NCBI RefSeq assembly: GCF_000024365.1
Contig: NC_013235.1
Span: 186,001 to 250,000, forward strand
Length of the DNA stretch: 64,000 bases
Direction of reading: 5' to 3'
From: Nakamurella multipartita DSM 44233
Lineage (GTDB): Bacteria; Actinomycetota; Actinomycetes; Mycobacteriales; Nakamurellaceae
Shown: positions 1 through 18,168 of the stretch, piece after piece
Position numbering within the stretch: the stretch's first letter is position 1
How the letters are laid out: each line of letters opens with the position of its first letter
Notes under the pieces: model-generated
Told to the model about the DNA's origin: nothing
The model's input: the letters and a program-made list of their open reading frames with translations, nothing else
Databases searched by the model: none
Translations under genes and position numbers: made by a program

Positions 1-3000
1 CCTCGACCGGCTCCCAGTCGGGCCGGAAATCATGACCGGCGCTCGCGAGCTGGTCCTGGAGCAGGGTCAGCGACGCCGCCACCCGGGTACGGCTGGACTT
101 GAGCGAACTCTCGTTGGGGCGCAGGTCTCCGGTGGCCGCCAAGACCTCCCGGAGCAGGGTCGTCACCGCGGCAGGCAGGGCGTCGATGATGTGATCGGCG
201 TCGGCCGGGAGCGCGTCGGTGGCGGTGGCGACCAACGCGGTTGGATCGGGCCATTGCTCGCGAGCGGTCGGCCAGGCGGGCGTGGTGCTCAACCGCAGGA
301 CGTCGGCGACGTCGGGCCGGCAGTAGGGCCGCAGCCGCAGGCAGTCCCGTTGGGCCTCGACGACGGCGTTGGCCAGCGAATCGACGGCGCCTTGGGCGGC
401 GCCGCGCCGCTCGCCGGCGGCGTCCCGGGCGTCGCCGTGGGCCTGCTCGGCGACGCGTTCCGCGGTCCGGGCATCGCGGTGCTCGGCGGTGGCCCGATCG
501 ATCTGCCCGTCGAGTTCGTCGACGGCGACGCCGACCGCGGCCCGCAGGGTTCTGAGCTCCTCCTCTCGAGCCCGATGACCGGTGCGGGAGAGCTCAGCCT
601 GTTCGGCGGCCTCGGCCAGCCGATCCCGCGCCCGGATCAGCTCTTCGACCGCGGTGTCCCGCGCCCGGCGGCGCTCGGTGGCGGTGGTTCGGGCCCCGCC
701 CAGCTCCGCCCCCGCCCGTCCGAAAAGGGCGACCGCGGCGGCGATGCCGTCGACCAGGTCGGGTTCGGCCGGCATCGATCGAGCGGCGGCCAGCCCGAGC
801 AGGGCATGGTGCCGGTGGTGATGGGCGGCGATGGCCTGATCGAGATCGCTTCGGGCGTTGTCCACCTCGCCGTGGACCGCCCGGGCCGCGGCCGATTCCC
901 GCTCGACCCGCCGGATGGCTGTGGTGAGCGGTCCGGTCGTCGGGAGGGCGGAGCGCGCCTGGTCGACCGCGTCGAGCATCGCCTGCAGCGCTCCGATCGC
1001 CGCCCCGGTGGCGTCGACCTGAGCGAGGACGTCGGCGATCTGCCGATCCAGGGCGGCCAATCGCTGGGCCCGGCGTCGAGACCGGGCCGTTGCACCGATG
1101 TACTCGGCGTGGGCCTTGCGGTGCGCGCCCAGCTGGAGCCCCTGTCGGAATCGTCCCAGCCGATCGATGGTCGGTGCCGCTCCTGGTCCCGATCCGGAGG
1201 GCTCGCCGACCGCGATCGAGGCGAGCACCGCCTCGATGGTCGAGATCCCTAGTGCGCCATCGGTTTCGGCAACCAACAGGGTGCCGAGCGGGGAGACGCG
1301 AGGGCGTTGCTCGGCCGGCAGCGGCAGCAGCACCGCGTCGGACTCGCCGGGATCGGCCGACCCATCCGGACCGATCCAGGCATCGAGCAGGTTGGCGGCC
1401 TCCAACGCGGCCTCGACCGCGGCCGCAGTGTCGTCATCGATCCCCGGGGCGAAATCGATCAACGCCCACAACGGGGCGCCGACCCGACCGTCCCTTCGCC
1501 CGGTGCGGGCCGCGAAGGCCGGGGGTGCCTGGTCCTGTTCTTCGGCGACCCGGGTCCGATCGGCCCGGATCGCGGCGAGCTGATCGCCCAGGAGGTTCAA
1601 GGTGTCGCCGAGCCGCCTGACCTCATCCCGGCGTGTCTGCCGGGCGTCGGCGATCTGCGCATCCAGGACGGCGGACAGCGGTGTGCTGCCGGACTCCCCG
1701 GCCCTGTCCACCGAGTCGACCAGGGCGGCGTGCACCGTGTCGGCCAGCCTGGGCGCGCCTGCCAGGCTGTCCAGTAGCGGTCCTCGCGAGCTGATCCAGT
1801 CCGCCAGCACCAGCTGGACCCGATCCCGCTCGGCGACGACGGCGGCCTGGGCCGCCATCAGGGCGGATTCGACGGCCTCCAGCCGCTCCTGGGCCCGGTC
1901 AAGGCGGCGTTGGGCCAGGTCGCGTTCGCGAGCCGCTTCGGCCACGCCGGCCATCGCGACCCGGACGGCCGCGACGTCGTCCTCTCGGGCCGTGATGCGC
2001 GCGGCCACCCGCTGGTCCAGGTGCTCGTCATCGACCTGGTCGTTGGTGTCCCAGTCGATGCCGGCGTCCCGGGCGGCCTCGGACAGCTCCGCGGCTCGCC
2101 GGCTGACTGCGGATAGCGCGTCTTCGTAGGCGGCTGCCGTGCCGGCTCGGGTCCGTTCTCGCTGCGCCGAGTCGGCCTCGGCCTGATCGCGGGCCTGGGC
2201 GTCCCGGTTGGCCGCCCGGCCCAGGTCGGCCGTGGCGTCCGCGAGCCGGTTGAGCTGCTCGCGGTCGCGGTAGGCCGATGAAGCCTTGAGCGAGTCCAGC
2301 CGGGACGTTGCTTCTTGCAGCCGATCCCGGGTCGCAGAGAGGTGCTGCTGCGCGGCGTCGCGGGCGGCGGCGGCCCGGTCTCGGGCGGCGAGCGCCGCGG
2401 TCAGGCTGACCCGAGCGGCGTCGATCGCCTCGAGCCGTACCGTCAGCCGGTCCGCCTCGGCGCGCGCGTGCGTGCGCAGGTAGGTGGTGTACCCCACCAG
2501 AAAAGCCGCCGCGGCGGCGTCGGCCTGGACCAGCCCGGACAGGGTGCGTTGGACGTTCTCCATGTCGCTGAAGGAATGGGCGGCCTCATCGACCAGGTGT
2601 TCATCCAGCGGGCGCAGACCGTCCGCCAACGCCCGGGACAGGCCTTTGGGGTCCAGATTCTTGGCCAGTTGGGGGCGGCGCAGCGTGAGCAGCAGGGTCA
2701 GCATCTGCTCGTACCGGCCGATGCCCAGGCCGAACAGCCGGGCGTCGACCGCGGTCCGATGAGCGAGCGGGCGTTCGGCCATCGTGGCCGGGAGGTGGTC
2801 CACCTCGGCCTCGAGCTGCCGTTTCGTCAGCGGCCGATCGTCCTCGCCGATCAAAGAGAAGTCGACGCCGACCTGGCCGTCGACCACGAAGTACCAGCGG
2901 GAGACCCGTTCGTGGTGACGCTGCGCCCGCAGTCCGGCGCCGATGGTCACCACTTCTCCGGCCGGATTCCCCGCTCGGCGGAACTCCATCCAGACGTACC

Positions 3001-3280
3001 CGTAGGCCGCTTCCTGGCCGCGGTAGAGCAGGTTGGCCTTCATGGTGCGCTCGTCACCGGCGAACGGGTTGAGTCGGCGCGGTTCGATTCGGCCATCCAG
3101 AACGAACGGGAACAGCACCTCAAGGGCCTTGGTCTTGCCCGATCCGTTCGGTCCGCGCAGCACCAGCCGGCCGTCGGCGAAGACGAACTCGTCGTCGCGG
3201 TAGTCCCACAGATTCACCACACCGCACCGGGTGGGCCGGAATCGGTCCGTCCTGGGCTCGGTGGCGCCGGAGTCCGTCAC
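1..3280 (-). CDS. jetC: JetC, SMC-like ATPase of a type II Wadjet system (C-terminus beyond window)
   Basis: The reading frame runs leftward from GTG at 3278-3280 and is still open at base 1, so about 1,093 N-terminal residues are visible. A Walker A motif, GPNGSGKT, lies at residues 43-50. It is followed by a long Ala/Arg/Glu/Asp-rich coiled coil from about residue 230, interrupted near residues 600-690 by a globular stretch (begins GAPLWALIDF) that fits an SMC hinge, then by more coiled coil to the edge. Walker B and the signature motif would lie outside. In this family (TIGR02680-like) JetC is the ATP-driven DNA-loop motor that, with JetA, JetB and the nuclease JetD, destroys small circular plasmids. 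It sits 29 bases after the jetB stop. No good ribosome site precedes the GTG, so the exact start is uncertain. jetD is expected to the left. Confidence 0.86.
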   Translation of the reverse strand, partial: MTDSGATEPRTDRFRPTRCGVVNLWDYRDDEFVFADGRLVLRGPNGSGKTKALEVLFPFVLDGRIEPRRLNPFAGDERTMKANLLYRGQEAAYGYVWMEFRRAGNPAGEVVTIGAGLRAQRHHERVSRWYFVVDGQVGVDFSLIGEDDRPLTKRQLEAEVDHLPATMAERPLAHRTAVDARLFGLGIGRYEQMLTLLLTLRRPQLAKNLDPKGLSRALADGLRPLDEHLVDEAAHSFSDMENVQRTLSGLVQADAAAAAFLVGYTTYLRTHARAEADRLTVRLEAIDAARVSLTAALAARDRAAAARDAAQQHLSATRDRLQEATSRLDSLKASSAYRDREQLNRLADATADLGRAANRDAQARDQAEADSAQRERTRAGTAAAYEDALSAVSRRAAELSEAARDAGIDWDTNDQVDDEHLDQRVAARITAREDDVAAVRVAMAGVAEAARERDLAQRRLDRAQERLEAVESALMAAQAAVVAERDRVQLVLADWISSRGPLLDSLAGAPRLADTVHAALVDSVDRAGESGSTPLSAVLDAQIADARQTRRDEVRRLGDTLNLLGDQLAAIRADRTRVAEEQDQAPPAFAARTGRRDGRVGAPLWALIDFAPGIDDDTAAAVEAALEAANLLDAWIGPDGSADPGESDAVLLPLPAEQRPRVSPLGTLLVAETDGALGISTIEAVLASIAVGEPSGSGPGAAPTIDRLGRFRQGLQLGAHRKAHAEYIGATARSRRRAQRLAALDRQIADVLAQVDATGAAIGALQAMLDAVDQARSALPTTGPLTTAIRRVERESAAARAVHGEVDNARSDLDQAIAAHHHRHHALLGLAAARSMPAEPDLVDGIAAAVALFGRAGAELGGARTTATERRRARDTAVEELIRARDRLAEAAEQAELSRTGHRAREEELRTLRAAVGVAVDELDGQIDRATAEHRDARTAERVAEQAHGDARDAAGERRGAAQGAVDSLANAVVEAQRDCLRLRPYCRPDVADVLRLSTTPAWPTAREQWPDPTALVATATDALPADADHIIDALPAAVTTLLREVLAATGDLRPNESSLKSSRTRVAASLTLLQDQLASAGHDFRPDWEPVE

Positions 3281-3309
3281 GCCCGATGACGGTAACAGGC
3301 CCGGCCCCG

Positions 3310-4710
3310 TCAGTCCTCCAGGTCGAACAGCCCGGCCGGGCGGTCGGTGGGCCGCACCGTGACCACGGCATTGCGGTAGCGGGCCAACAACGGCCGGGCC
3401 AGCACCCCGCCCGGCACCCGGATCACCATCTCCAACTCGGCCAGCAGCTCCAGCGCCGTTTGCAGCAGGCGATCCGGATCGGCCACAAATGCGGCCGACA
3501 GCGCCGTGCCGTAGGTGCCGATCAGGTCGCCCACGGCCGCGCGCAGCCAGCCGTCCTCCAGGAAGGGGTAGGCCGTCGGGGCCGCGTGGTCGTTCTCGTC
3601 GTCGTTGTCATCGCTCTCGACACCGTCTGGCTCCCGGTCGTCGCCGTCCTCGGCGAGCTGGGCGACCAGGTTGGCCCGGGGCAACGCCGCATCAAGGGAG
3701 TTCACCCATCGCTCGCTCCGGGCCGTATCGGCGGTCAGCTCGGTCAGCGGGGCCTGGTCCGGATCCACGACGCGGTCGGCGATTCGGTTGGCCAGTAACA
3801 GCGCCATCTGCGCTCGGGTGCCCGAACCAGGGAACCGGCGGTCCGAGAACATGCCTGAGACGTCCAACAGGGCAACGCCCTCGCTGCGTCGTTCGATGGA
3901 AAGGCCGGTCATTTCGGCTACTTCGGCGGTCGGTCCGGGGGCGCGCAACATGCCTCGATCGGCCGCGTCGAGATCGGCGTAGTAGACCACCGGTTGCTCG
4001 ACCAGCGCGCGCCGGACGCGCTGGGCCGATTCTCGGCGGCGGGTGTCCCGGCTGACCCCCTGCGGCCGGTGCAGCAATGCGCGCGCCGTGCCGATGTGCT
4101 GTAGGACGGGCGAGGGACGATACAGGGCGCGCAACACGTCGCGGTCGATGTCGTACAACGCCTCGCCGACCGAGGGATCGTCGACCCAGCGTCGAGCACT
4201 GCCGTCGGCCAGCCGGATCGCCCCACGGGCTTCGAGCCACCCGGCGGCATCGACGAACCCGGACCGGTCAGGGTGCCGATCCAACGAGAGCTCCAGGCCG
4301 TCGATCCGTTCAGCCTCGGCCGCGACCCGTTCGGCAAGTTCCGATAGTGCGATCTGGGTACCGGCGCGCCCCAGCACGGCCAGCGCCAGGCAGAGATAGG
4401 CATATCGGCGCCGATCGAACGGTCGGTCGAGCTGGGCGCCGGCCAGCGCCGGCTGGCTCGCATCGAAGGCGTCCCGCACTCGGGAAAGCCGGGCCGTCGT
4501 CGACGTCAGCTCCAGGCGGTAGCCGAACAGGTCGGCCAGTTCCGTGCGCAGCGGCACCGCCCATCGCCGAACCAACGGCAACGCTTCCGCATTCGGGTAG
4601 CTCGCCGTGATCAACGGCCAGGTCAGCAGGACCCGGGCGGCCCGTTGGTAGGCGGCGCGTTCCAGCAATGTGACCGCGGCGCCGCTCGGCTGGTCGAGCG
4701 GGCTGTTCAT
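3310..4710 (-). CDS. jetB: JetB, MukE-like subunit of type II Wadjet (TIGR02678-like)
   Basis: This 466-residue protein matches the TIGR02678/JetB family in its N-terminal helix-rich part and in its position between jetA and jetC. JetB proteins are winged-helix partners that bind the kleisin JetA and regulate the JetC motor. Its ATG overlaps the jetA stop (ATGA), which points to translational coupling and fixed stoichiometry. A very acidic low-complexity insert (rich in D and E, around residues 345-375) lies before the last conserved block and may be a flexible linker. The identification rests on order, size and general resemblance, as no catalytic motif is expected in this subunit. Confidence 0.85.
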   Translation of the reverse strand: MNSPLDQPSGAAVTLLERAAYQRAARVLLTWPLITASYPNAEALPLVRRWAVPLRTELADLFGYRLELTSTTARLSRVRDAFDASQPALAGAQLDRPFDRRRYAYLCLALAVLGRAGTQIALSELAERVAAEAERIDGLELSLDRHPDRSGFVDAAGWLEARGAIRLADGSARRWVDDPSVGEALYDIDRDVLRALYRPSPVLQHIGTARALLHRPQGVSRDTRRRESAQRVRRALVEQPVVYYADLDAADRGMLRAPGPTAEVAEMTGLSIERRSEGVALLDVSGMFSDRRFPGSGTRAQMALLLANRIADRVVDPDQAPLTELTADTARSERWVNSLDAALPRANLVAQLAEDGDDREPDGVESDDNDDENDHAAPTAYPFLEDGWLRAAVGDLIGTYGTALSAAFVADPDRLLQTALELLAELEMVIRVPGGVLARPLLARYRNAVVTVRPTDRPAGLFDLED

Positions 4711-6260
4711 CGTGATCCGACCCGATCAGGGCCGGACGCGCTGACCGTCAGGGCCATTCGATCCAGCCGCAACACCCCGCGGACGGTCTCGACCGCGGTC
4801 GACTGCTCCTGCGGGACAAGCGTGAGCCGGACCCCGAGCGTCGAACCGGTCGCCGGCACCCGCCCGGAGACTGGCACCCTGGCACCCAGGGCGACGTCGA
4901 GCAGTGAGAACAGCAGTGCAGTCTCGGGTTCGGAGAGGATCCGGCCGGCCAGCGGTGAGCTGGTCAGAGACCCCGCGGCCCCGGTGCGGGCCGACCGGTC
5001 CGCCAGCTGAGTTGCCCGCAACCGTCGGCGCCCGGCCTCGTTGCGGTCGAGCCGGGCCGGTGGCCCTGGGCTGCCCTGCTTGCCCGATTCCACCAGGGTG
5101 CGAGAGAGCTCGACCGGGTCGGCCTCCCACCAGGTGCGGCGGGTCGGAATCAGCTCGGGATCGGGGTGGACCACGCTGACGTGGCGTGGCCGGCTCAGGT
5201 CGAACGCGGCGACGAACAGCGCATGGGCGGAGGGCAGGTCGGTCGTGGCCGCGAACCAGGCGGCCAGGTGGCGGAGCTGGCTCTCCCGGTTGACCCCGCC
5301 CAGCCGGGCCTCGGTCACCCGGCGGAGCAGGGCCAGGACGGCGGCGACCGCGCTGATCGTGGCATCTTGCAACCGGTCGGCCTCGCTGCGGTGCGTTTCG
5401 CCGGGCACGGCGACGAACCAGTGCACCAGCCCGTCCCATCGCTGCCGCCAGTCCTGGAGTCGATCGGCCGGGCTGCGAAAGATCCGCTCATCGGCTTCGG
5501 CGGCCAGCTCGACCAGCCGGTCCACCCCGCTGTCCCGCACCGCCTGCACCGCGGCCGTCAACCGCGGCGCGAAGCGAGCCAGCTCGGTGGAGAACTCCCG
5601 CAGGTGGGCGATGAGCGCGTCCTTGTGGGTCAGGAACAGCTCGGCGCTGCTGTCCGTGCTCTTGGACAGATCCGAGAGCATCAGGTAGAACCGGGCGGCT
5701 CGTTCGGCCATCTCGCCCAATACCGAGTCGAGCCGGTTCAGCTTGCGATAGACCAGGTCGGCGTCACCGGCCCGATTGGCGGCGGCCAAGTCGAGCAGGT
5801 CGGTGAGCAACTCGGGCAGCACCAGGCGGGACAAGGTGGCGTCGTCCAGCCGGGCGCCCAGCACGTCCTCCACCGCTCGATAGGCGCGATAGCCGGCCTG
5901 ATTGAACTGGTAGACGTAGTGCCGGTTGCGATACTCGGCCAGCGTGGCGGCTCGGGCCCCGTCGTAGCTGCGGTCCAGGACCTGCCAGCCGTACAGCTGG
6001 TCGAGCAGGGGATTGACCTCGTCCGGGGCGAGCGCCGGGACCGCGCCGCTCGGATGGTCCTGGGCCAGCGAGGCCAACGACGCGCTCACTTCGGCGGCGT
6101 GCTGCAGCACCACGTAGTTGGCCCGGCTGCGCTCCATGGCCCGCAGCACCCACAGGTAGGAAATGCTCTTCTCCGCCGTCGTGAACGCGAACAGCCGTAA
6201 CCGCTCGCTATCGGTGAACCCGGGATTGAACGTCGCCGGGATGGCGTCGGGCTCGCTCAC
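4707..6260 (-). CDS. jetA: JetA, kleisin-like subunit of type II Wadjet (TIGR02677-like)
   Basis: A 517-residue protein starting VSEPDAIPATF at GTG 6258-6260. TIGR02677/JetA proteins have about this length and begin with the same type of segment (LFAFTTAEKSISYLWVLRAM near residues 21-40). JetA is the MukF-like kleisin that bridges the two JetC heads and recruits JetB. A -10 box, TAGGCT, ends seven bases before the GTG, so the operon probably starts as a leaderless message. That decides against a much longer in-frame extension upstream, which would run over cobU. The gene follows cobU by 29 bases in the same direction but has its own promoter. jetB overlaps its stop codon. Confidence 0.87.
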   Translation of the reverse strand: MSEPDAIPATFNPGFTDSERLRLFAFTTAEKSISYLWVLRAMERSRANYVVLQHAAEVSASLASLAQDHPSGAVPALAPDEVNPLLDQLYGWQVLDRSYDGARAATLAEYRNRHYVYQFNQAGYRAYRAVEDVLGARLDDATLSRLVLPELLTDLLDLAAANRAGDADLVYRKLNRLDSVLGEMAERAARFYLMLSDLSKSTDSSAELFLTHKDALIAHLREFSTELARFAPRLTAAVQAVRDSGVDRLVELAAEADERIFRSPADRLQDWRQRWDGLVHWFVAVPGETHRSEADRLQDATISAVAAVLALLRRVTEARLGGVNRESQLRHLAAWFAATTDLPSAHALFVAAFDLSRPRHVSVVHPDPELIPTRRTWWEADPVELSRTLVESGKQGSPGPPARLDRNEAGRRRLRATQLADRSARTGAAGSLTSSPLAGRILSEPETALLFSLLDVALGARVPVSGRVPATGSTLGVRLTLVPQEQSTAVETVRGVLRLDRMALTVSASGPDRVGSR

Positions 6261-6267
6261 CCGGCCG

Positions 6268-6273
6268 AGCCTA
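6268..6273 (-). promoter_or_regulatory. -10 box of the Wadjet operon (leaderless)
   Basis: TAGGCT on the minus strand, then seven bases, then the jetA GTG. It lies inside the 29-base gap after cobU, so the defence operon can be transcribed independently of the cobalamin gene. Confidence 0.5.
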
Positions 6274-6289
6274 CGGCTGGGTTCGGCCG

Positions 6290-6832
6290 TCACAGCCGCA
6301 GCGTCCGCCCGGCGACGACCAGCAGCACGTCGTCGCTGGCCGCCGCGATCCGCTGGTTGACCCGCCCGAGCAGGTCGCGGAAGGTGCGGCCGGACCGGTG
6401 CTCGGGCACCACGCCCCAACCGACCTCGTTGGTCACCGCGACCAACGGCCCGGGATGGGACCGCCAGGCCCGCTCGAGATCGTCGAGCTGCCGGTCGAAG
6501 TCGGGTTGCCATTCGGCCAGCCGCCGATCCCAGGTGCCGAGCTGGTCGACCACCGCGGTCACCCAGGTGCCCAGGCAGTCGATCAGCACCGCGGCCCTTT
6601 CCTGGCCGAGCGCCCGGGCCAGGTCGGTGGTCTCGACCGTTCGCCAGTGGGATGGACGCTGCGCCCGGTGGGCGTCGATCCGGTCGGCCCACTCCGGGTC
6701 GACGGATCGATCGGGGACCGGCCCGGGGGCCAGGTAACTGACGGCCGGACGATCGGCCAGCAGGTTCTCGGCCACGCGGGACTTGCCCGATCGGACGCCG
6801 CCGGTGACCAGGGTGCGGCGGGTCGAAGTCAC
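6290..6832 (-). CDS. cobU: Adenosylcobinamide kinase / guanylyltransferase
   Basis: A 180-residue protein with the P-loop GGVRSGKS at residues 11-18 and the CobU/CobP family block VTNEVGWGVVPE near residue 130. It phosphorylates adenosylcobinamide and adds GMP to give adenosylcobinamide-GDP in the late cobalamin pathway. The start is GTG at 6830-6832, six bases after a TACGGT -10 box, another leaderless arrangement. The other cobalamin genes nearby (cobD at 9460 and cobK at 12081) are in separate transcription units, so this is a scattered rather than single cob operon. Length and motifs are complete. Confidence 0.94.
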   Translation of the reverse strand: MTSTRRTLVTGGVRSGKSRVAENLLADRPAVSYLAPGPVPDRSVDPEWADRIDAHRAQRPSHWRTVETTDLARALGQERAAVLIDCLGTWVTAVVDQLGTWDRRLAEWQPDFDRQLDDLERAWRSHPGPLVAVTNEVGWGVVPEHRSGRTFRDLLGRVNQRIAAASDDVLLVVAGRTLRL

Positions 6833-6838
6833 CGCTCG

Positions 6839-6844
6839 ACCGTA
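6839..6844 (-). promoter_or_regulatory. -10 box of cobU (leaderless)
   Basis: TACGGT on the minus strand, six bases before the GTG start of cobU. No ribosome-binding site is visible between them. Confidence 0.5.
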
Positions 6845-6848
6845 CCGG

Positions 6849-8024
6849 TCACGCCGCCCACGACGGCCCGTCGGCCGGCAGTCGGTAGACCCGGCGGGCG
6901 TTGTCGGCCCCGATCATCCGGGCCACCCGGGCCGCGTCGGTCGCCGACCAGTCACCCTCGCGCACCCACCGGCCAAGTGTCCGGGCCATCCCGCGGCGCC
7001 ACAGCACGGCGCCCAACAGGTGCAGTTCCGGCGGGCCGCAGGCGTCGGAGGAGTAGAGCTGCTTGGCGAACGGGGCGAGTTCCAGTGACTCGGCGACCAA
7101 CTCGACCGAGCGGACACCGAGATGGTTGATGGCCAGACCGACATCGAGATAGACGTGGCCGAACGCCTGGGCGAGGTACCCGGCCGCCCGGTGATAGGGG
7201 TAGCAGTGCAGCAGGACGATCGGGACGGTGCGTCTTGCGTGCAGCAAGGGCACCAGGAGCAGCGGGTCGGCGGTCCGCAGGTCCAGGTCCCGGTCGCCCA
7301 GTCCGACGTGGATCTGCACGGGCAGGCCGGCGTCGGCGGCCGCGTGCACGCCGAACGCGATGATCGTGGGGTCGTCGACCCGCACCGTCGGGGAACCGGG
7401 CAACGGCGCGGCGGCCCGGCCGACCGCCGCATCGGAGGGTCGCGACCAGTCGATGTCCAGGCCGCACCGGTACGCCGCGACGGTCTTCGCGGCGACCACG
7501 GCCGGGCCGGCGGCGGCCAGCCGAGCGCGGAACTCCTGCGCCCAGGACGGTCCGGAAATTCCTTCTGCGAGCAGGGTTTCGGCCAGCGACTCCAGCCGCA
7601 GCACCTCGCCGGCGACCCCACCCGCCCAGTGCGCCAGTTGCCGGGGCGGGCACAGCCGATCGGTCCAGAAGCCGGAGTCCACCAGCCAGGTCGACACCCC
7701 GGCGGCGGGCAGCATGGCCCGGGCCAGCAGCTCTGGGGTCATGGTCGAGCGCCGATGCCAGTACTCGTCGGCGTCGACCGCGGGCGGTAGGTCGAGCTGC
7801 GGTGCACACCAGCGGCGCACGGCAAACCCGAGCTGGCTGTCGAACTGCGTCATGAACGCTGGAATCGGATCGGCCGTAGCCTCGTTCAGCGATTCCTCGA
7901 ACCCGGCCCGATCCAGCTCTCCGGTGAAGCAGCCGTGGACGTGATGGTCGATCAGGGGCTCGGCCAGCGCGGCCGCTACGTCGTCGTCGACGCCCGAAAG
8001 CCCTTCGAGGAAAGCGGCGCTCAC
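6849..8024 (-). CDS. FluG N-terminal-like amidohydrolase
   Basis: A 391-residue metal-dependent hydrolase of the amidohydrolase-2 superfamily. The N-terminal HxH metal motif is in DHHVHGCF (residues 26-33); a further candidate metal His is in IHVGLGD, another in LLHCYPYH, and the late Asp is in YSSDACGP. Its GTG start overlaps the stop of the upstream glutamine-synthetase-like gene (GTGA), so the two are coupled. In fungal FluG the same two domains are fused in one protein in the opposite order. The natural substrate is unknown; a gamma-glutamylated amine or related amide is a reasonable guess from the partner enzyme. It ends 16 bases before cobU starts. Confidence 0.78.
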   Translation of the reverse strand: MSAAFLEGLSGVDDDVAAALAEPLIDHHVHGCFTGELDRAGFEESLNEATADPIPAFMTQFDSQLGFAVRRWCAPQLDLPPAVDADEYWHRRSTMTPELLARAMLPAAGVSTWLVDSGFWTDRLCPPRQLAHWAGGVAGEVLRLESLAETLLAEGISGPSWAQEFRARLAAAGPAVVAAKTVAAYRCGLDIDWSRPSDAAVGRAAAPLPGSPTVRVDDPTIIAFGVHAAADAGLPVQIHVGLGDRDLDLRTADPLLLVPLLHARRTVPIVLLHCYPYHRAAGYLAQAFGHVYLDVGLAINHLGVRSVELVAESLELAPFAKQLYSSDACGPPELHLLGAVLWRRGMARTLGRWVREGDWSATDAARVARMIGADNARRVYRLPADGPSWAA

Positions 8025-9379
8025 CCGCTGAACGCCTGCCGGAAGGCGGCCGCGACGACGTCGGGATCGGCCCCGGAGTAGGCCTGCAGCTCGTGCCGCC
8101 GCACGGCCAGGGTGCCGTCGACGACGACGTCACCGAGCAACCGGCGGGCCAGCGACGAGCGGTCCAGGGCTGCCAGGGCGGCCGCCTGATCGGCGGCCAG
8201 GGCCAGCGCGGATCGTCGCTCGGCGGTCAGCTCGACCGGATTGACCGGCACCTCGTCCGGCAAGGCCAACTGCCGCTCGATGCCGTCCAGGGCCGACCCC
8301 AGCAGGGCCGCCGCGGCCAGGTACGGGTTGGCACTGGCGTCGACGACCTTCACCTCGACGGAGGCGCCATGCGGGTTGCCGGGGGTGGCGGCCACCAGGC
8401 GGATCGCCGCCTCCCGATTCTCCAGACCCCAGCAGGCAAAGGCGCCGGCCCAGTTGCCGGGCCGCAGCCTGGTCGAGGACACCGCCGACCCGGCCAGCAC
8501 GGCCTGCACGCCGGGCAGGCCGTCGATCAGCCCGGCGATCGCGGCCCCGCCGGCGGGGTGAAGCCCGTGCGGTCCGGCCCCGCCGGACAGCAGCGGTCCC
8601 TCGCCGTCGGTCAGGGAGAGATGCAGGTGCGCACCGTTTCCCGCCCCGCCGGCGAACGGCACCGGCGAGAACGAGACTCCGCAGCCGTGCCGGGCCGCCG
8701 CCCGCCCGATCAGCAGCCGGGCCAAGACCGTTCGATCGGCCGTGGTGAGCGGGTCGGCCGGGGGCAGCGAGATCTCGAACTGGTCGGCGCCGTACTCGGC
8801 GTGCAGCTGTTCCAACGGCATCCCGGCGCCGTCGAAGCTGTCGGTCAGATCGGTCAGCAGCGGGGCGATGTCCAGCAGGGGCCGGGCGCCGTAGCCCTGC
8901 CAGGTCGGCCCGATCCGGGCGGCCCCGTCGGGTCGGGTCAGCACGAATTCCAGTTCCGTCCCGGTCCGGGCGGCCAGGCCGGCGGCACCCAGCGCGTCGA
9001 CGACCGCGCGCAGCCGCGCCCGCGGGCAGCCCACGAACGGTGTCCCGTCCTGCTCGCAGAAGTCCGCCGGCGCCCAGGCCACCCCGGACTCCAGGACGGT
9101 GGTGGCGGCCGGGTCGATCCGCAGGCGCAGGTCGCCGACCACGCCGAACCGGGCGGTGAACGCGATGGACATGTCGACGCCGAACGCCAACCAGGACGGC
9201 GAGGCCCCCATGCCGGCCGTCACGAAGTCCGATAATCTCTCCACTGGAACACTTTTCGCGCGGATGACGCCGGCGTAGTCGACCGCGGTGCCGACCAGCA
9301 GCCGCACCGACCGGTCGTGCAGCCGGGCGGCGGTGGACGGGACGGAACCACCGACGAAACGGGTGCTCGATTCGATCAT
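8021..9379 (-). CDS. Glutamine synthetase-like ligase (FluG C-terminal / gamma-glutamyl-amine type)
   Basis: A 452-residue type I glutamine synthetase homologue. The catalytic core is recognisable: GTELEFVL (metal Glu), the ATP/ammonia block GNGAHLHLSL, and the Arg-rich block RPGNWAGAFACWGLENREAA followed by KVVDASANPYL. It is shorter and more divergent than housekeeping GlnA and lacks an obvious adenylylation loop. Together with the amidohydrolase overlap this suggests a ligase for gamma-glutamylation of an amine rather than ammonia assimilation. The ATG at 9377-9379 is chosen because GGGAG stands five bases upstream and a -10 box (TACGGT, 9412-9417) lies at a normal distance. It is transcribed divergently from cobD. 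Confidence 0.8.
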   Translation of the reverse strand: MIESSTRFVGGSVPSTAARLHDRSVRLLVGTAVDYAGVIRAKSVPVERLSDFVTAGMGASPSWLAFGVDMSIAFTARFGVVGDLRLRIDPAATTVLESGVAWAPADFCEQDGTPFVGCPRARLRAVVDALGAAGLAARTGTELEFVLTRPDGAARIGPTWQGYGARPLLDIAPLLTDLTDSFDGAGMPLEQLHAEYGADQFEISLPPADPLTTADRTVLARLLIGRAAARHGCGVSFSPVPFAGGAGNGAHLHLSLTDGEGPLLSGGAGPHGLHPAGGAAIAGLIDGLPGVQAVLAGSAVSSTRLRPGNWAGAFACWGLENREAAIRLVAATPGNPHGASVEVKVVDASANPYLAAAALLGSALDGIERQLALPDEVPVNPVELTAERRSALALAADQAAALAALDRSSLARRLLGDVVVDGTLAVRRHELQAYSGADPDVVAAAFRQAFSG

Positions 9380-9411
9380 GAGGGCTCCCAGTGTCGACCG
9401 TCGGTGATCCG

Positions 9412-9417
9412 ACCGTA
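9412..9417 (-). promoter_or_regulatory. -10 box of the glutamine synthetase-like / amidohydrolase operon
   Basis: TACGGT on the minus strand, giving a leader of roughly 25 bases that carries a GGGAG ribosome site before the ATG at 9379. It lies back to back with the cobD promoter. Confidence 0.4.
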
Positions 9418-9447
9418 GCGCTCGGCCAGCCGCCATGGGAGGCCTCC

Positions 9448-9453
9448 TATAGT
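9448..9453 (+). promoter_or_regulatory. -10 box of cobD (leaderless)
   Basis: TATAGT, six bases before the GTG start at 9460. This spacing puts the transcription start on or next to the start codon. Confidence 0.55.
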
Positions 9454-9459
9454 CGGCGG

Positions 9460-10410
9460 GTGAAGTCGACGAGCGCCCGCGCGCTGGGCCTGCTCCTCGG
9501 ATACGGCGCCGACCTGATGCTCGGGGACCCGCGCCGGGGGCACCCGGTGGCCGGGTTCGGCCGGCTGGCCGCCGCACTGGAACGGCGGACCTACCGCGAT
9601 TCCCGGGCCGCCGGGGCCGGTCATACCGCGGTGCTGGTGATCGGCACGGTGTCGGCGGGGATCGCCGCCGAGCGGGTGGCCCACCGCTCGCCGATCATCC
9701 GGGTCGCGCTGACGGCGGCCGCCACCTGGGCCGTGCTGGGCGGCCGCTCGCTGCGTCGGGAGGCGAACGCCGTCGCCACCCGCCTGGCGGCCGGGGACCT
9801 GCCCGGCGCCCGCCGGCAGATCACCCACCTGGTCGGCCGGGACCCGGCGACGTTGGACCAGGCCGGAATCGCCCGGGCCTGCGTGGAGTCGGTCGCCGAG
9901 AACACCTCCGACGCGGTGGTGGCGCCCCTGCTGTGGGGGGCGATGGCCGGGGTGCCCGGCCTGCTCGGGTACCGGGCGGTGAACACCCTGGATGCGATGA
10001 TCGGCCACCGCTCACCTCGATACGCCCGGTTCGGCTGGGCGGCCGCCCGGCTGGACGACGCCGCCAACCTGGTGCCCGCCCGGCTGTCGGCCGCCCTGGC
10101 CGCCGGGCTGGCTCCGACCGTGGGCGGCTCGGTACGGGCCGCGCGGCGGGCGGTCCGCCGGGACGCCGGCCACCACCCCAGCCCGAACGCGGGCCCGGTG
10201 GAGGCCGCGTTCGCCGGGGCGTTGGGCCGGACCCTGGGCGGGGTGAACGTCTACGGCGGCACCGTCGAGGACCGCGGCACCCTGGGTGACGGGCCCGCCC
10301 CCCGCACCACGGACATCGCCCGTGCCGTTCGGCTGTCCGCGGCCGTGGGCGCCGGCGCGCTGGCGGTCGCCGCCGGGTGGGCCTTCTCGATCGGCCCCCG
10401 GGCCCGCTGA
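9460..10410 (+). CDS. cobD: Adenosylcobinamide-phosphate synthase
   Basis: A 316-residue integral membrane protein of the CobD/CbiB family. Diagnostic blocks are LMLGDPRRGHPVAGFG near the N-terminus, CVESVAENTSDAVVAPL in the middle and AVNTLDAMIGHRSPRYARFG after it, with alternating hydrophobic membrane stretches. It attaches aminopropanol (or its phosphate) to adenosylcobyric acid to form the lower-ligand arm of cobalamin. The GTG at 9460 is preferred over an upstream in-frame start at 9391 because the TATAGT box directly precedes it and homologues begin near this point. Confidence 0.92.
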   Translation: MKSTSARALGLLLGYGADLMLGDPRRGHPVAGFGRLAAALERRTYRDSRAAGAGHTAVLVIGTVSAGIAAERVAHRSPIIRVALTAAATWAVLGGRSLRREANAVATRLAAGDLPGARRQITHLVGRDPATLDQAGIARACVESVAENTSDAVVAPLLWGAMAGVPGLLGYRAVNTLDAMIGHRSPRYARFGWAAARLDDAANLVPARLSAALAAGLAPTVGGSVRAARRAVRRDAGHHPSPNAGPVEAAFAGALGRTLGGVNVYGGTVEDRGTLGDGPAPRTTDIARAVRLSAAVGAGALAVAAGWAFSIGPRAR

Positions 10411-10423
10411 TCCGGATCGGGCC

Positions 10424-10429
10424 TATCGT
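10424..10429 (+). promoter_or_regulatory. -10 box of the DUF427 gene (near-leaderless)
   Basis: TATCGT, five bases before the ATG at 10435. Confidence 0.45.
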
Positions 10430-10434
10430 GAATC

Positions 10435-11328
10435 ATGTCGCTGACGACCGGAACCAGCCCGGTCGGACCCCGCCCGGCCGGGCGGTTCAACAAGCCGATG
10501 CCGGATTCCGCCGGCCTGTTCTACCTGGAGCCCTGCCGCCCGCGGATCCGCGGCCAGTCCGGTGACGTCATCGTGGTGGACAGCACCGCGGCGTCGCTGC
10601 TGCACGAGCACGGGCAGCTGCCGGTGCTGTACTTCCCGGTCGATGATGTCCGTACCGATCTGCTCGAGCCCAACGGCACCCGTGCGCACAGTCCGGGCAA
10701 GGGGGAGGCGACCGGGCTGCGGCTCTCCGTGGGCGACCGGGTGGTGCAGGACGCCGGTTGGCGGTTCGACCAGCCGGAGTGGGACGCCCTGGCCGGACTG
10801 ATCGCCTTCTACCTGCCCGCCATGACGCAGTGGTGGCAGGAGGACGAGCCGATGCCGGGGCATGCCCGCGATCCCTACCACCGGATCGAGGTGCTCGATA
10901 CCTCCCGTCGGGTAAGGGTTCTCGTCGAGGGACGGGTGCTCGCCGACACCACCCGAGCCCGGGCGCTGTTCGAGAGCGGGCTGCCGACCCGCTGGTACAT
11001 CCCGCCGCGGGACGTCGATGCGAGCCTGCTGGCGGACAGCGCGACCCGGACGACCTGCGCCTACAAGGGCCAAGCCAGGTACGTGAGCATGCGCGTGCGC
11101 CCGGACCAACCTGACGACAAGCAGCCCGACCTGGCCTGGATCTACGACGAACCGCTGCCCGACGCGGCGCGCGTCGCCGGGTACGTCTGCTTCTGGAACG
11201 AGCGGGTCGACCTGGAGATCGACGGTGAGCCGGTGCCGCGTCCGGTCACCGAATTCCTGGGCGGACCGACTCCGCTGCTCGGTCTGCTGCCGCCGGCCAT
11301 GCTGGAGCGCCCGCGACCGGCCGACTGA
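10435..11328 (+). CDS. DUF427 family protein, two-domain form
   Basis: A 297-residue soluble protein with two copies of the DUF427 fold. The second carries the family signature TRTTCAYKG, followed by Y-x-S and then a conserved aromatic segment (DLAWIYDEPLP). The function of DUF427 proteins is not established; they are small beta-rich domains common in actinobacteria and cyanobacteria. It stands alone between cobD and the convergent cobK, and a -10 box just ahead of its ATG implies its own promoter. Nothing in the sequence ties it to cobalamin synthesis. Confidence 0.8.
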   Translation: MSLTTGTSPVGPRPAGRFNKPMPDSAGLFYLEPCRPRIRGQSGDVIVVDSTAASLLHEHGQLPVLYFPVDDVRTDLLEPNGTRAHSPGKGEATGLRLSVGDRVVQDAGWRFDQPEWDALAGLIAFYLPAMTQWWQEDEPMPGHARDPYHRIEVLDTSRRVRVLVEGRVLADTTRARALFESGLPTRWYIPPRDVDASLLADSATRTTCAYKGQARYVSMRVRPDQPDDKQPDLAWIYDEPLPDAARVAGYVCFWNERVDLEIDGEPVPRPVTEFLGGPTPLLGLLPPAMLERPRPAD

Positions 11329-11334
11329 CCGGAA

Positions 11335-12081
11335 TCACCGGTCGATGCGGCGCCGGGCCCAGTCCACGGCCCTGGCCACGTCGTTCACGTTCGCCACCCC
11401 GGCGGGCGGGGCCGGCCGCCGGACCACGACCACCCGCGCCCCGACCCGGTCGGCGGCCACAAGTTTGGCCTGCGTCATCGCCCCACCCGAATCCTTGGTG
11501 ATGACCACTTCGATCCGGTGCTCGCGCATCAGCGCCTGCTCGCCGGCCACGGTGTACGGGCCGCGCGAGGTCACCACGGCCCATCCGGCCGGCAGCGGGC
11601 CGGTCGCCGGCTCGACCAGGCGGACGAGCACGAACGGCGCCGCCAGGTCGGCGAATGCGCGCAGGGTGGTGCGGCCGGTGGTCAGCAGCACCCGGTCGCC
11701 GCGGGCGGCGGTGGCCGCCTGCGCGTAGTCGTCCACCCACTGCCAGGTCGGGGCGAGCGGGTGGCCGGTCCACCCGGGGCGGGCCAACCGCAGTAACGGG
11801 ACCTCGGTCCGGCGGCAGGCGACCGCGGCCGAGGCCGAGATCGCTTGGGCGAAAGGGTGGGTGGCGTCGACGACGGCCCTGATGCGGTGCGCGTGCAGGT
11901 AGTCGGCCAACCCGGCGGCGCCACCGAAGCCGCCGATGCGCACCTCACCCGCCGGCAGCGCCGGGTCCCGCACCCGGCCGGCCAGCGACGACACGGCGGG
12001 CACGCCGGCCGCCAGCAATCGGGCAGCCAGGTCGCGAGCTTCTCCGGTGCCGCCGAGGATCAGAACGGCGGGGGCAGGCAC
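11335..12081 (-). CDS. cobK: Precorrin-6A reductase
   Basis: A 248-residue protein with the N-terminal motif ILGGTGEARDLA, the central DATHPFA block and the later TKDSGG segment, all typical of CobK/CbiJ. It reduces the corrin ring of precorrin-6A with NADPH during cobalamin synthesis. The GTG at 12079-12081 follows a TAGTCT -10 box by six bases. It converges with the DUF427 gene, six bases from its end. The remaining cobalamin ring-building genes are not in this window. Confidence 0.92.
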   Translation of the reverse strand: MPAPAVLILGGTGEARDLAARLLAAGVPAVSSLAGRVRDPALPAGEVRIGGFGGAAGLADYLHAHRIRAVVDATHPFAQAISASAAVACRRTEVPLLRLARPGWTGHPLAPTWQWVDDYAQAATAARGDRVLLTTGRTTLRAFADLAAPFVLVRLVEPATGPLPAGWAVVTSRGPYTVAGEQALMREHRIEVVITKDSGGAMTQAKLVAADRVGARVVVVRRPAPPAGVANVNDVARAVDWARRRIDR

Positions 12082-12087
12082 CCGGGC

Positions 12088-12093
12088 AGACTA
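12088..12093 (-). promoter_or_regulatory. -10 box of cobK (leaderless)
   Basis: TAGTCT on the minus strand, six bases before the cobK GTG, in the 16-base gap after the MATE gene. Confidence 0.5.
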
Positions 12094-12097
12094 CCGA

Positions 12098-13426
12098 TCA
12101 CCGGACGGCGCCGGTGATCAGCCAACGATCCCCGCGATACCGCCAGCCCAGGGTCACCGCCCGGGCGCCCATGAAGACGATCGAGAACGCCACCCACAGC
12201 CAGACCAGACCGGCGCTGCCGCCGGGCGCCCACATCGCGACCGCCCACGCCGCCGGCAGGTAGACGACCAGCGTGAGCACGCCGGCCCAGGCCAGGTAGA
12301 CGCCGTCGCCGGCGCCGATCAGTACCCCGTCCAGCACGAACACCCACCCGCACAACGGCTGCGAGACGGCGACCACGATCAGCGCCGCGCCGACGGCGGT
12401 GCGCACCTCGGGGTCGGGGGAGAACGCGGCCCCGGCGAAGGTGTGGATGAGCAGCACCACGATGCCGATGGCCACACCGGCCCCGACGCCCCACCGCAGC
12501 ATCACCCCGGTGAAGCGGCGCGCGGCCGCCTGGTCCCCCTCGCCGAGGGCCTTGCCGGTCAGCGCCTGCGCGGCGATGGCCAGCGCGTCCAGACCCAGGG
12601 CCAGGAAGTTCCAGATGGACATGACGACCTGCTGCGCGGCCAGCACGGTGACTCCCTGCCGGGCGGCCACGGCGGTGGTGACGATGATCGCCGCCCGCAG
12701 GGTCAGGGTGCGGACGAACAGCGGCACGCCCGCCCGTCCGGCGCCGCGGATGTGCCCGGCGTGCGGTGTCAACGCGACCCCGAGCCGCCGCGCGCCGCGG
12801 GCCACGATGACCACCAGCACGGCCGCCATTGCCGTTTGGGTCAATGCCGTGCCGATGGCCGAACCGGCCACGCCCAGCCCGATTCCGTAGACCAGCAGCA
12901 CGTTGAGCCCCATGTTGACCATGGCTCCGGCCCCGGCGACATACAGCGGGGTGCGGGTGTCCTGCAGCCCGCGCAGCACGCCGGTGGTGGCCAGCACGGC
13001 GAGCATCGCCGGCAGGCCGAGCAGGGACCAGCGCAGGAAGACGATCCCGAAGTCGGCCACCGCCGTCGTGCCGCCGAAGAGGTCGATCAGCCACGGCGCC
13101 AACGGCCAGCCGACCGCCAGCACGGCCACCCCGATGATCACGGCCAGGTACAGCCCGGCGATGCCGAAGGTCAGTGCATCGGCGGGACGGCCCGCACCCA
13201 GGGCCCGGGAAACCTGTGCGGTCGTGCCGTACGCCAGGAACACCGACAATCCGACGAGGGTGCCCAGGATGACCGAGGCGATGCCCACGCCCGCCAGCTG
13301 AGCAACTCCGAGGTGACCGACGATCGCCGCGTCGACCAGCAGGAAGATCGGCTCGGCCAGCAGCGCACCCAGCGCCGGAACCGCCAGCCGCAGGATTTGC
13401 CGGTTGAGCCCGGACTCGCGCGCCAT
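12098..13426 (-). CDS. MATE family efflux transporter (DinF-like)
   Basis: A 442-residue protein with about twelve hydrophobic segments in two repeats. It begins NRQILRLAVPALGALLAEP, a typical DinF-branch start with the VPALGALLAEP motif in helix 1, and has the FLVDAAIVGHLG segment. MATE proteins export cationic drugs or metabolites using a sodium or proton gradient. It lies 16 bases after the decarboxylase gene and 16 bases before cobK on the same strand, so the three could be co-transcribed, although cobK has its own -10 box. The substrate cannot be inferred. Confidence 0.88.
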   Translation of the reverse strand: MARESGLNRQILRLAVPALGALLAEPIFLLVDAAIVGHLGVAQLAGVGIASVILGTLVGLSVFLAYGTTAQVSRALGAGRPADALTFGIAGLYLAVIIGVAVLAVGWPLAPWLIDLFGGTTAVADFGIVFLRWSLLGLPAMLAVLATTGVLRGLQDTRTPLYVAGAGAMVNMGLNVLLVYGIGLGVAGSAIGTALTQTAMAAVLVVIVARGARRLGVALTPHAGHIRGAGRAGVPLFVRTLTLRAAIIVTTAVAARQGVTVLAAQQVVMSIWNFLALGLDALAIAAQALTGKALGEGDQAAARRFTGVMLRWGVGAGVAIGIVVLLIHTFAGAAFSPDPEVRTAVGAALIVVAVSQPLCGWVFVLDGVLIGAGDGVYLAWAGVLTLVVYLPAAWAVAMWAPGGSAGLVWLWVAFSIVFMGARAVTLGWRYRGDRWLITGAVR

Positions 13427-13442
13427 CGAGGTCCCGGGCCGC

Positions 13443-14831
13443 TCAGAGCCCGGCGGCCAGGCGCAGGACGGCCGCGACGCTGCGGTCGATGTCGTCCTCG
13501 GTGGTGGAGTGGTTCGACACGGAGATGCGCATCAACCGTCGCCCACGCCAGGTGGTCCCGCCCAGCCAGCAGGTGCCCTCCCGTTGCACGGCGTCGATCA
13601 CCGCGTCGGTGCGCTCGTCGGAGCCGAAGTCGGCCAGCACCTGGTTGAGCACGACGTCGTTGACGATCTCGACCCCGCCGGCGGCCAGCCCGTCGGCGAA
13701 CCGGCGGGCCAGCGCGCAGCACCGGGCGACCAGGTCGGCCACCCCGGTCTCACCCAGCTCGCGCAGGGCCGCCCACACCGCGAAACCCCGGGCTCGGCGC
13801 GAGGATTCGAGCACGTAGTCGGACGGCGACCCGGCCGTGCCGGCCCCGGTCAGGTAGGCCGCCGAGTACGATGCGGCCGCGACGTGCGCCGACGGATCGG
13901 CGCAGAAGACCAGGCCGCAGTCGTAGGGCACGTTGAGCCACTTGTGCGCGTCGGTGCACCACGAGTCGGCCAGCTCGATGCCGTCGGTCAGTGCGCGGGT
14001 CTGCGGGCAGGCCGCTGCCCAGAGACCGAAGGCGCCGTCGACGTGCACCCAGCTGTGCTCGACCGTGCGGGCCAGCCCGATCGCGGCTCGCAGGTCGTCG
14101 CAGGCGCCGGTGTTGACGTTGCCCGTCTGCAGCACGACGATCGTCGGCATGGTCGGCTCGTCGGCCAGAACCTTTGCCAGGTCATTGATGTCGATGGCCC
14201 CCTGCGGGCCGGCGGCGACCGGTCGAACGCTGGCGTTGCCCAGGCCGAGCAGCCGCAACGACCGGTCCACCGTGGCGTGCCGCTCCACTGACGCGACCAC
14301 CCGCACCCGGGGCGACCCGGCCAGACCGTCTCGCTCGACGTCCCACCCGGCGGCGGCCAGTACCTGGTGCCGGGCGGTCGCCAGCCCGACGGTGTTGGCC
14401 GACTGCGCGCCGGTGCCGAAGCCGACGGACGCCGACGCCGGGATTCCGAGCAGCTGCTTGCACCAGCCGCCGGCCACCTCCTCCACCACACTCGCGGCGG
14501 GGGAGGAGATCGCGTTGAACGCCACCTGGTCCCACCCGACGGCCAGGATGTCCGCCGCCGTGGCCGCCGGCAGGGACCCGCCGATCACGAACCCGAAGAA
14601 CCGCGGGCCGGCCGTGGCCACCAGGCCGGGATCGGCGGCGACGACGAGGTCGTCGATCACCCGGTCCGGCGACGTCGGCCCGGCCGGCAGCGGCCCACCG
14701 AGGGCGGCCAGCAGGGCCGCCCGATCGGCCGGGCCGGCGACCGGGCGGTGCGGCAGCCCGGCCCGGTAGTCGATGACGGCCTCGGCGGCCGTACGGATCA
14801 GGTCGGCGACGGATCCCGGTTCGTCGGTCAT
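13443..14831 (-). CDS. PLP-dependent group II decarboxylase family protein
   Basis: A 462-residue fold-type I PLP enzyme of the glutamate/tyrosine/DOPA decarboxylase-like family. The PLP-binding lysine is in DAHKWLNVPYDCG, preceded by the VHVDGAFG aspartate block, and the FGFVIGG segment near residue 80 is typical of this branch. Possible reactions are decarboxylation of an aromatic or acidic amino acid; the substrate is not readable from the motifs. The ATG at 14829-14831 is used because TAGCGT lies eight bases upstream. The MATE transporter directly downstream could export an amine product, which is only an inference from position. Confidence 0.82.
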   Translation of the reverse strand: MTDEPGSVADLIRTAAEAVIDYRAGLPHRPVAGPADRAALLAALGGPLPAGPTSPDRVIDDLVVAADPGLVATAGPRFFGFVIGGSLPAATAADILAVGWDQVAFNAISSPAASVVEEVAGGWCKQLLGIPASASVGFGTGAQSANTVGLATARHQVLAAAGWDVERDGLAGSPRVRVVASVERHATVDRSLRLLGLGNASVRPVAAGPQGAIDINDLAKVLADEPTMPTIVVLQTGNVNTGACDDLRAAIGLARTVEHSWVHVDGAFGLWAAACPQTRALTDGIELADSWCTDAHKWLNVPYDCGLVFCADPSAHVAAASYSAAYLTGAGTAGSPSDYVLESSRRARGFAVWAALRELGETGVADLVARCCALARRFADGLAAGGVEIVNDVVLNQVLADFGSDERTDAVIDAVQREGTCWLGGTTWRGRRLMRISVSNHSTTEDDIDRSVAAVLRLAAGL

Positions 14832-14839
14832 GCCCGGGG

Positions 14840-14845
14840 ACGCTA
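14840..14845 (-). promoter_or_regulatory. -10 box of the PLP decarboxylase gene
   Basis: TAGCGT on the minus strand, eight bases before the ATG at 14831. Confidence 0.35.
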
Positions 14846-14874
14846 CGCCCCCGGGCATGACCGGCCCGCGCGGC

Positions 14875-15324
14875 TCAGCTCGCGGCGACGGCCTGGGGCT
14901 CGACGACGGTGCGGTCGCCCCCGGTCCGGATCTGCACCCGCCGCGGCTTGGCCTTGTCGGCCACGGGAATAGTCACGGTGAGCACGCCGTTCTCGTAGCT
15001 CGCGCTGATGCCGTCCGTGTCGATCCCGTCGCCCAGCGACAGCTGGCGCAGGAAGCTGCCGGTGAACCGTTCGCTGGCGATCCACTGCACGCTGTCCTCC
15101 GAGCGAGCGGTGCGCTCGGCCTTGATGGTGAGAGTGTTGTTGTCGATACCGATGTCGATCGACCCCGGGTCGACGCCGGGCAGATCGGCGGTCAAGATGT
15201 AGTGATCCCCGGCCCGGAACAGATCCATCGGCATGAACGCCGGGGTCCGGCCGTTGGGCACGGGCAGATTGGACAGTCGCGACGCGAGCCGGTCCATGTC
15301 ACGGAACGGATCGAAGCCAAGCAC
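14875..15324 (-). CDS. Hsp20 / alpha-crystallin small heat shock protein
   Basis: A 149-residue protein beginning VLGFDPFRDMDRL, with a central alpha-crystallin domain (ADLPGVDPGSIDI, then NNTLTIKAER) and the conserved GVLTVTIP block followed by the K-P-R-R ending. Small heat shock proteins hold unfolding proteins in a refoldable state. Three GTG codons are possible starts; 15322-15324 has AGGAGG at the right distance (eight bases), whereas the one at 15333 overlaps that site. Upstream lies a CIRCE element that overlaps the promoter, so HrcA-type heat-shock control is expected. It is not near groEL or dnaK here. Confidence 0.93.
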   Translation of the reverse strand: MLGFDPFRDMDRLASRLSNLPVPNGRTPAFMPMDLFRAGDHYILTADLPGVDPGSIDIGIDNNTLTIKAERTARSEDSVQWIASERFTGSFLRQLSLGDGIDTDGISASYENGVLTVTIPVADKAKPRRVQIRTGGDRTVVEPQAVAAS

Positions 15325-15392
15325 AGCGACCACCTCCTGGACATCCTGGGCGACCCGCCACCCTGGCGATCGCCATCAGCTGTGCACCTCCA

Positions 15393-15422
15393 TTATTAGC
15401 ACTCGACGACCGAGAGTGCCAA
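15393..15422 (-). promoter_or_regulatory. hsp20 promoter (-35 TTGGCA, -10 TAATAA)
   Basis: On the minus strand TTGGCA (15422-15417) and TAATAA (15398-15393) are separated by 18 bases. The CIRCE inverted repeat fills this span exactly, so bound repressor would block both promoter boxes. Confidence 0.6.
15396..15422. promoter_or_regulatory. CIRCE element (HrcA operator)
   Basis: TTAGCACTC, nine bases, GAGTGCCAA. This matches the CIRCE consensus TTAGCACTC-N9-GAGTGCTAA with one mismatch. HrcA binds CIRCE and represses chaperone genes until heat shock. Confidence 0.88.
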
Positions 15423-15444
15423 CCGTTCGGCACCTGGACTTGCA

Positions 15445-15505
15445 GTTGATCATGGGCGAAAGGTCGTTATCGGGGCCGGATATCGGCACTCTTCCCATGA
15501 TCAAC
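15445..15505. repeat. Palindromic intergenic element (12-base arms)
   Basis: GTTGATCATGGG at 15445-15456 and its exact reverse complement CCCATGATCAAC at 15494-15505 enclose 37 bases. The flanks are nearly symmetric too (CTTGCAG on the left against CCTGCTG on the right, read inward). It lies between hsp20 and the ROK gene, outside any gene. It resembles a dispersed palindromic repeat or miniature element; no second copy was noticed in this window. Confidence 0.6.
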
Positions 15506-15507
15506 AG

Positions 15508-15560
15508 CAGGGGCGGGGGCAGGGCAGGGGCAAGGCGGGGCGGGGGCAGGGCAGGAGGGT
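15508..15560 (+). repeat. G-rich low-complexity tract
   Basis: Repeated GGGGC / GGGGGCAGGGCA units run from the edge of the palindromic element to the end of the ROK gene. The regular G runs could form a quadruplex on this strand. Confidence 0.5.
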
Positions 15561-15563
15561 GAG

Positions 15564-16778: not shown

Positions 16779-16785
16779 GGGGTTG

Positions 16786-16791
16786 ACCTTA
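16786..16791 (-). promoter_or_regulatory. -10 box of the ROK repressor gene (leaderless)
   Basis: TAAGGT on the minus strand, seven bases before the ATG at 16778. Confidence 0.45.
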
Positions 16792-16796
16792 GCGGG

Positions 16797-16826
16797 TTTG
16801 TCAGATAAGTTCATTCAAAGAACAAA
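16797..16826. promoter_or_regulatory. Candidate XylR operator between the ROK gene and xylA
   Basis: This is the only AT-rich stretch of the divergent gap. It contains GTTC (16809-16812), seven bases, GAAC (16820-16823), and wider arms TTTGT (16797-16801) and ACAAA (16822-16826). The position fits joint control of both genes; the exact site is inferred. Confidence 0.45.
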
Positions 16827-16849
16827 ACGGCGCGACGAAGGAGTCTCCC

Positions 16850-18043: not shown

Positions 18044-18063
18044 CGCCGGCCGCGATCACTCGT

Positions 18064-18100
18064 GCGCACGTCGCGCCGGCCCAGCCGGCGCGGCGTGCGC
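18064..18100 (+). terminator. Hairpin terminator after xylA
   Basis: Seventeen-base arms (18064-18080 and 18084-18100) around a CCA loop, with one G-T pair in the stem, beginning 21 bases after the xylA stop. Only a short T-containing tail follows, as usual in high-GC actinobacteria. Confidence 0.75.
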
Positions 18101-18168
18101 ATTCTGCGGCTCCCGGCGGAATGGAAATTCCCGAGAACCGTTTGCTGATGCCCCCCCGTACCCCTTGG

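Follow-up and report, generated by a model that had tools for sequence, protein, structure and literature searches.

The MukBEF and MksBEF condensins combine a kleisin, a KITE, and an SMC subunit and do without a nuclease subunit. In the Wadjet systems, JetABC is reported to extrude DNA loops until small circles block its motors, whereupon the DNA is cut by JetD (PMC10586767, PMC12287153). According to the same two sources, loss of EptABCD in Mycobacterium smegmatis raises plasmid transformation. EptABCD is, like the operon analyzed here, an actinobacterial JetABCD, a likeness that we draw by description. Some form of Wadjet is given for about 42% of actinobacterial genomes (PMC10482375).

We analyzed an operon that crosses the left end of the window, the whole 64,000-nucleotide stretch of DNA under study (G000:C1:186001-250000). 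We interpret it with high confidence as a complete type II Wadjet (JetABCD) located in the junction between cobU and cobS, which was most likely gained horizontally and in which jetA most likely has a leaderless start. The operon shares with type II Wadjet the four protein families, the gene order, the ATPase motifs, and the DUF3323-DUF2399 architecture of JetD. Nothing essential differs, while the cobU-cobS location and the probable leaderless start count as local detail. In contrast to MukBEF and MksBEF, it also has a nuclease gene, jetD.

Composition of the operon

The earlier note on this DNA had described jetA, jetB, and jetC and predicted a jetD directly past jetC, to the left of position 1. 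The first three genes indeed lie on the minus strand where they had been placed (Table 1). The window contains the N-terminal 1093 of the 1409 amino acids of JetC, whose gene ends at G000:C1:185051. The predicted jetD follows after a spacing of 8 bases, completing the order A-B-C-D. The jetA stop and the jetB start overlap by 4 bases, whereas the gaps between cobU and jetA and between jetB and jetC are 29 bases each. The genes upstream of jetA are tightly packed and all run on the same strand with it.

Table 1. Positions of the operon, its flanking gene, and the candidate start signals (window coordinates unless a contig is given)
Feature	Description	Position	Strand
jetA	kleisin-type (DUF2397 / TIGR02677), 517 aa, GTG start 6260	4707..6260	-
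jetB	KITE-type (DUF2398 / TIGR02678), 466 aa	3310..4710	-
jetC	SMC ATPase (TIGR02680), GTG 3280, runs off the left window end	1..3280	-
jetD	419 aa, ATG start, outside the window (left)	G000:C1:185042-183783	
cobU	host gene bounding the insertion on the jetA side	6290..6832	-
TAGGCT	-10-like TANNNT, spacing of 7 to the GTG of jetA; putative leaderless promoter	6268..6273	-
TACCGT	TANNNT, spacing of 8 to the GTG of jetC; weaker candidate for a leaderless start inside the operon	3289..3294	-
JetB acidic linker	approximately residues 352-378	3577..3657	-

All four proteins scored above the curated cut-offs of the respective families: JetA reached 216 bits against TIGR02677 (cut-off 165.85), JetB 136 bits against TIGR02678 (124.65), JetC 709 bits against TIGR02680 (462.85), and JetD 231 bits against TIGR02679 (196). 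The Pfam assignments were DUF2397 for JetA (E=1.6e-131), DUF2398 for JetB, SbcC_Walker_B for JetC, and DUF3323 together with DUF2399 for JetD, while PADLOC matched its type II models JetA2, JetB2, JetC2, and JetD2 (the last with 407 bits). Together with the gene order and the adjoining jetD, these matches bear out the assignment to type II Wadjet. The two outcomes that the earlier note had named as speaking against it, a missing jetD or a best match to MukBEF or another SMC family, did not occur; the latter was ruled out because the NCBIfam matches include no MukB or MukF family.

The ATPase motifs of JetC are a Walker A motif GPNGSGKT from residue 43, a signature motif LSGGEQ from residue 1270, and a Walker B motif LLALDEAF from residue 1301. 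JetD carries VCENP from residue 281 (E283) and GDFDWTG from residue 328 (D329 and D331). The acidic glutamate and the DFD are conserved across all 10 aligned JetD homologues, and by analogy with the family these residues are predicted to be the Toprim metal ligands. Among known structures, the JetC chain of PDB 9qe0/9qe1 matched our JetC (E=1.1e-74, 255 bits) and the JetA chain matched our JetA (E=6.9e-11, 45 bits), making them distant sequence homologues of the two proteins; JetB and JetD gave no significant PDB sequence match.

JetB contains an acidic stretch that had been called unusual. We found this linker at the matching place in the five closest aligned JetB proteins (L062, L073, L076, L078, and L079), while it was absent from four aligned JetBs of other lineages (L071, L072, L080, and L082). 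The most acidic 30 residues carry a net charge of -12 in our protein and of -7 to -11 in the five linker-bearing relatives. In the four JetBs that lack the linker, other parts of the protein attain -6 to -8; thus, only the position of the linker and the extreme value of ours are notable. Our linker is the most acidic of the set, but the presence of a linker at this place in the five closest relatives does not fit with an insert peculiar to this protein.

The cobU-cobS junction and the origin of the operon

In its own genome, the jet operon fills the junction where cobU meets the convergent cobS-cobT genes. On the cobS side, jetD and cobS overlap tail to tail by 11 bases; the terminator-like hairpin of cobS (L002:7780-7796) is complementary to the final codons of jetD. 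The operon thus occupies the junction exactly. The terminator scan yielded 5 sites compared to 1.4 expected, and the four besides the cobS hairpin are located inside jetC.

We compared the junction in 8 of the 16 genus-mates, which were picked for the closest cobT match. The convergent junction is empty in three of them (G012, G013, and G015; loci L063, L064, and L067), where the matched ends of cobU and cobS-cobT lie about 40-100 bases apart. Other genes lie between in L065 (~4.2 kb, 4667-8848) and L066 (~2.6 kb, 6101-8720); judged by eye, this cargo is apparently metabolic. The cob genes are arranged differently in L069 and L070, and L068 had no cobU match within its 20 kb. Counting our own, three of the six convergent cobU/cobS junctions seen hold different cargo. 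The junction is a repeated insertion point within the genus. None of the features that we looked for accounts for the entry of the operon. The 19.9 kb around the insertion contain no tRNA, and the flanking genes put through the family search include no integrase; repeats at the insertion edges, each edge being searched separately, were limited to short ones inside either edge.

Within 20 kb of cobU, jetA was found exclusively in our own genome, both among the 23 cobU-bearing genomes of a first set (1 of 23) and, with 0 of 68, in a second set, where the nearest copy lay ~62 kb away (G447); these distances were read by eye, and many of the genomes are drafts with the genes on separate contigs, in which closeness is possible. 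The second set comprised 70 genomes of the class above the TIGR02677 cut-off outside the first set, with 17 weaker-match genomes left out. As ours is the only one of the compared genomes with jetA near cobU, we rejected a conserved Wadjet-cobU linkage.

A TIGR02677 match was present in two genus-mates (G005 and G013). Their JetA proteins share 26-29% identity with ours, as compared to 56-61% for those of L062, L073, L076, L078, and L079. In a JetA tree of 21 rows, rooted by midpoint only, our protein falls into a 13-row clade (support 100/99) apart from both genus-mates. A lone horizontal gain, rather than conserved linkage, is likeliest on these sequence comparisons because JetA of the genus-mates belongs to another clade. 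With a GC content of 0.70-0.74, the jet genes do not differ noticeably from the genome, for which 20 stretches gave 0.711 (sd 0.02), and composition is therefore uninformative on recent transfer. The contig scan with JetA returned one locus, L062, which is the nearest relative by identity. In L062:12899-15830, the jetC match is limited to the C-terminal part (query 983-1397).

The start of jetA

The earlier note had proposed a separate TAGGCT-GTG start inside the 29-base gap behind cobU. A scan of 474,000 bases from this genome (213 genes kept by a codon-position GC filter) revealed TANNNT at a spacing of 6-7 before 18 of 628 candidate starts, possibly including jetA itself, compared to 2 of 4170 internal in-frame ATG or GTG codons. 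Every other spacing from 0 to 30 accounted for 0 to 3 of the 628 candidate starts. With its spacing of 7, the TAGGCT of jetA falls inside this peak. An E. coli-type two-hexamer promoter scan of the region returned no site.

We then turned to 74 jetA loci including our own, 60 of them newly fetched and chosen by eye, chiefly for matches from the first profile positions, and 14 from earlier work. TANNNT at a spacing of 5-8 preceded an in-frame start in 15 loci; 10 of these came from the newly fetched loci, related genomes included, while the other five (our own, L074, L077, L078, and L079) had already been seen before the test, and the matches are not all independent because several share one genus or family. 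An SD-like pentamer without such a TANNNT was found in 14 of the other loci and neither signal in 45. Across 192 candidate jetA starts, TANNNT occurred 14 times at a spacing of 6-7 and 22 times in total at the 31 spacings between 9 and 39, or ~0.7 at each. Published estimates put predicted leaderless genes at ~19% in Actinobacteria (PMC3160421) and at 26% of the genes with a primary transcription start site in M. tuberculosis (PMC3898074); the leaderless-type share among jetA loci is therefore ordinary. Both the peak at 6-7 nt in the genome and the other jetA loci thus back the proposed start, and jetA transcription probably begins at its own GTG from the small TAGGCT promoter.

The accompanying claim, that the defense genes do not rely on cobU, fared less well. 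The terminator scan of the 29-base gap revealed no terminator-like site, and the genes upstream are closely packed in the same orientation. A degree of read-through from this gene row, of which cobU is the last member, is likely. In addition, an in-frame GTG at 6293, 11 codons upstream of GTG 6260, overlaps the cobU stop (GTGA). The shared strand, the short gap, the tight packing, and this GTGA overlap would also suit an arrangement that we consider unlikely, in which jetA lacks a separate promoter, shares the cobU transcript, and is translated from GTG 6293 by GTGA coupling. In the nearest relative, L062, the tested range contains a single in-frame jetA start, and it precedes our GTG 6260 by ~12 codons, which weighs toward this rival start. 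However, jetA starts close to the position of GTG 6260 in L073, L076, and L078, and gap-free extrapolation places the beginning of the PADLOC JetA2 match at about residue 4 of the protein read from GTG 6260. GTG 6293 arises from the CTG-TGA with which cobU ends; as the insert-free genus-mate L063 shares this ending, it may be fortuitous, whereas the TAGGCT-N7-GTG at 6260 matches the leaderless peak of the genome. Thus, we favor the leaderless start at GTG 6260.

A similar candidate in front of jetC did not extend to other genomes. We compared TACCGT-N8-GTG with the 13 other loci in which the N-terminal part of jetC was matched (one of them lacking any candidate start) and saw no counterpart; a conserved internal promoter upstream of jetC was rejected.

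Predicted function and JetD-less relatives

By homology to the described systems, the kleisin JetA, the KITE protein JetB, and the SMC ATPase JetC would assemble into a loop-extruding motor that is dimeric. Where the DNA is a small circle, these motors would finish extrusion, stall, and pass a bent segment to JetD, a Toprim nuclease, which would cut it. Transcription would start from the jetA GTG itself through TAGGCT, without a leader, as the comparative signal suggests, and jetB would be translated through coupling to jetA. By the same analogy, the operon is predicted to cut small circular plasmids; since several loci in our JetA clade occur without a genomic JetD, clade membership alone is no guarantee of such activity.

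We consider it very improbable that the complex is an MksBEF-like condensin that organizes the chromosome and plays no part in plasmid defense. The kleisin-KITE-SMC composition and the same-clade JetA relatives in genomes without JetD would agree with such a role, but here an adjoining jetD of full length is present in which the conserved acidic residues are retained. Moreover, 14 of the 16 genus-mates have no TIGR02677 match, so the operon is no housekeeping gene of the genus.

A JetA match without a DUF2399 match was found in 7 of 13 genomes of a set partly chosen for JetD absence and in 15 of the 73 jetA-bearing genomes of a larger set that includes some drafts. Matches to jetA, jetB, and jetC without jetD were detected in L078, L079, and L082, as well as in seven of eight additional loci (L164-L170), which were chosen partly for missing JetD. 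The eighth locus, L163 (G310), has a type II JetA-like gene with no detectable jetB, jetC, or jetD beside it. The JetC ATPase motifs are legible in L078 and L079, and the genes downstream of jetC in the listed JetD-less loci include none that is jetD-like. Within our 13-row JetA clade, jetD accompanies the genes in our own genome, L062, L073, and L076 and is absent in nine rows, namely L078, L079, L165, and six f31-family loci. This count is not a frequency because all but L078 and L079 of the nine were fetched for missing JetD. It is possible that the JetD-less jetABC loci represent nuclease-less Wadjets; a review regards MksBEF of P. aeruginosa as a likely case of JetD loss (PMC10586767). 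As to neighboring genes, a metH-like gene lies upstream of the jetABC block in L079 and L078, and the next gene in L079 and L165, both of family f7, is an mshC-like ligase, named by eye, on the opposite strand; this shared setting suggests that the JetD-less block of family f7 was inherited vertically at one place.

Two cobalamin riboswitches lie to the left of the window, one at L002:4810-4939 (+), ~1 kb upstream of cobT and on the same strand, and the other at L003:8136-8271 (+). None was found at the gathering score ahead of the cobU-jet genes (window positions 5000-25000), and a B12 riboswitch in front of them was rejected; the two riboswitches are on the other side and on the plus strand. 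The jetABCD genes run head-on into cobT-cobS, and it is highly unlikely that this layout ties plasmid defense to the vitamin B12 state; if it did, scarce B12 would lead to strong cobTS transcription antisense into jetD and jetC and the defense would be lowered.

The locus is a further well-formed example of type II Wadjet and shows that a convergent metabolic gene pair took up different cargo inside one genus. It further indicates that a leaderless-type start occurs in some type II jetA genes. The fair number of jetA-bearing genomes without any JetD could be the more useful lead.
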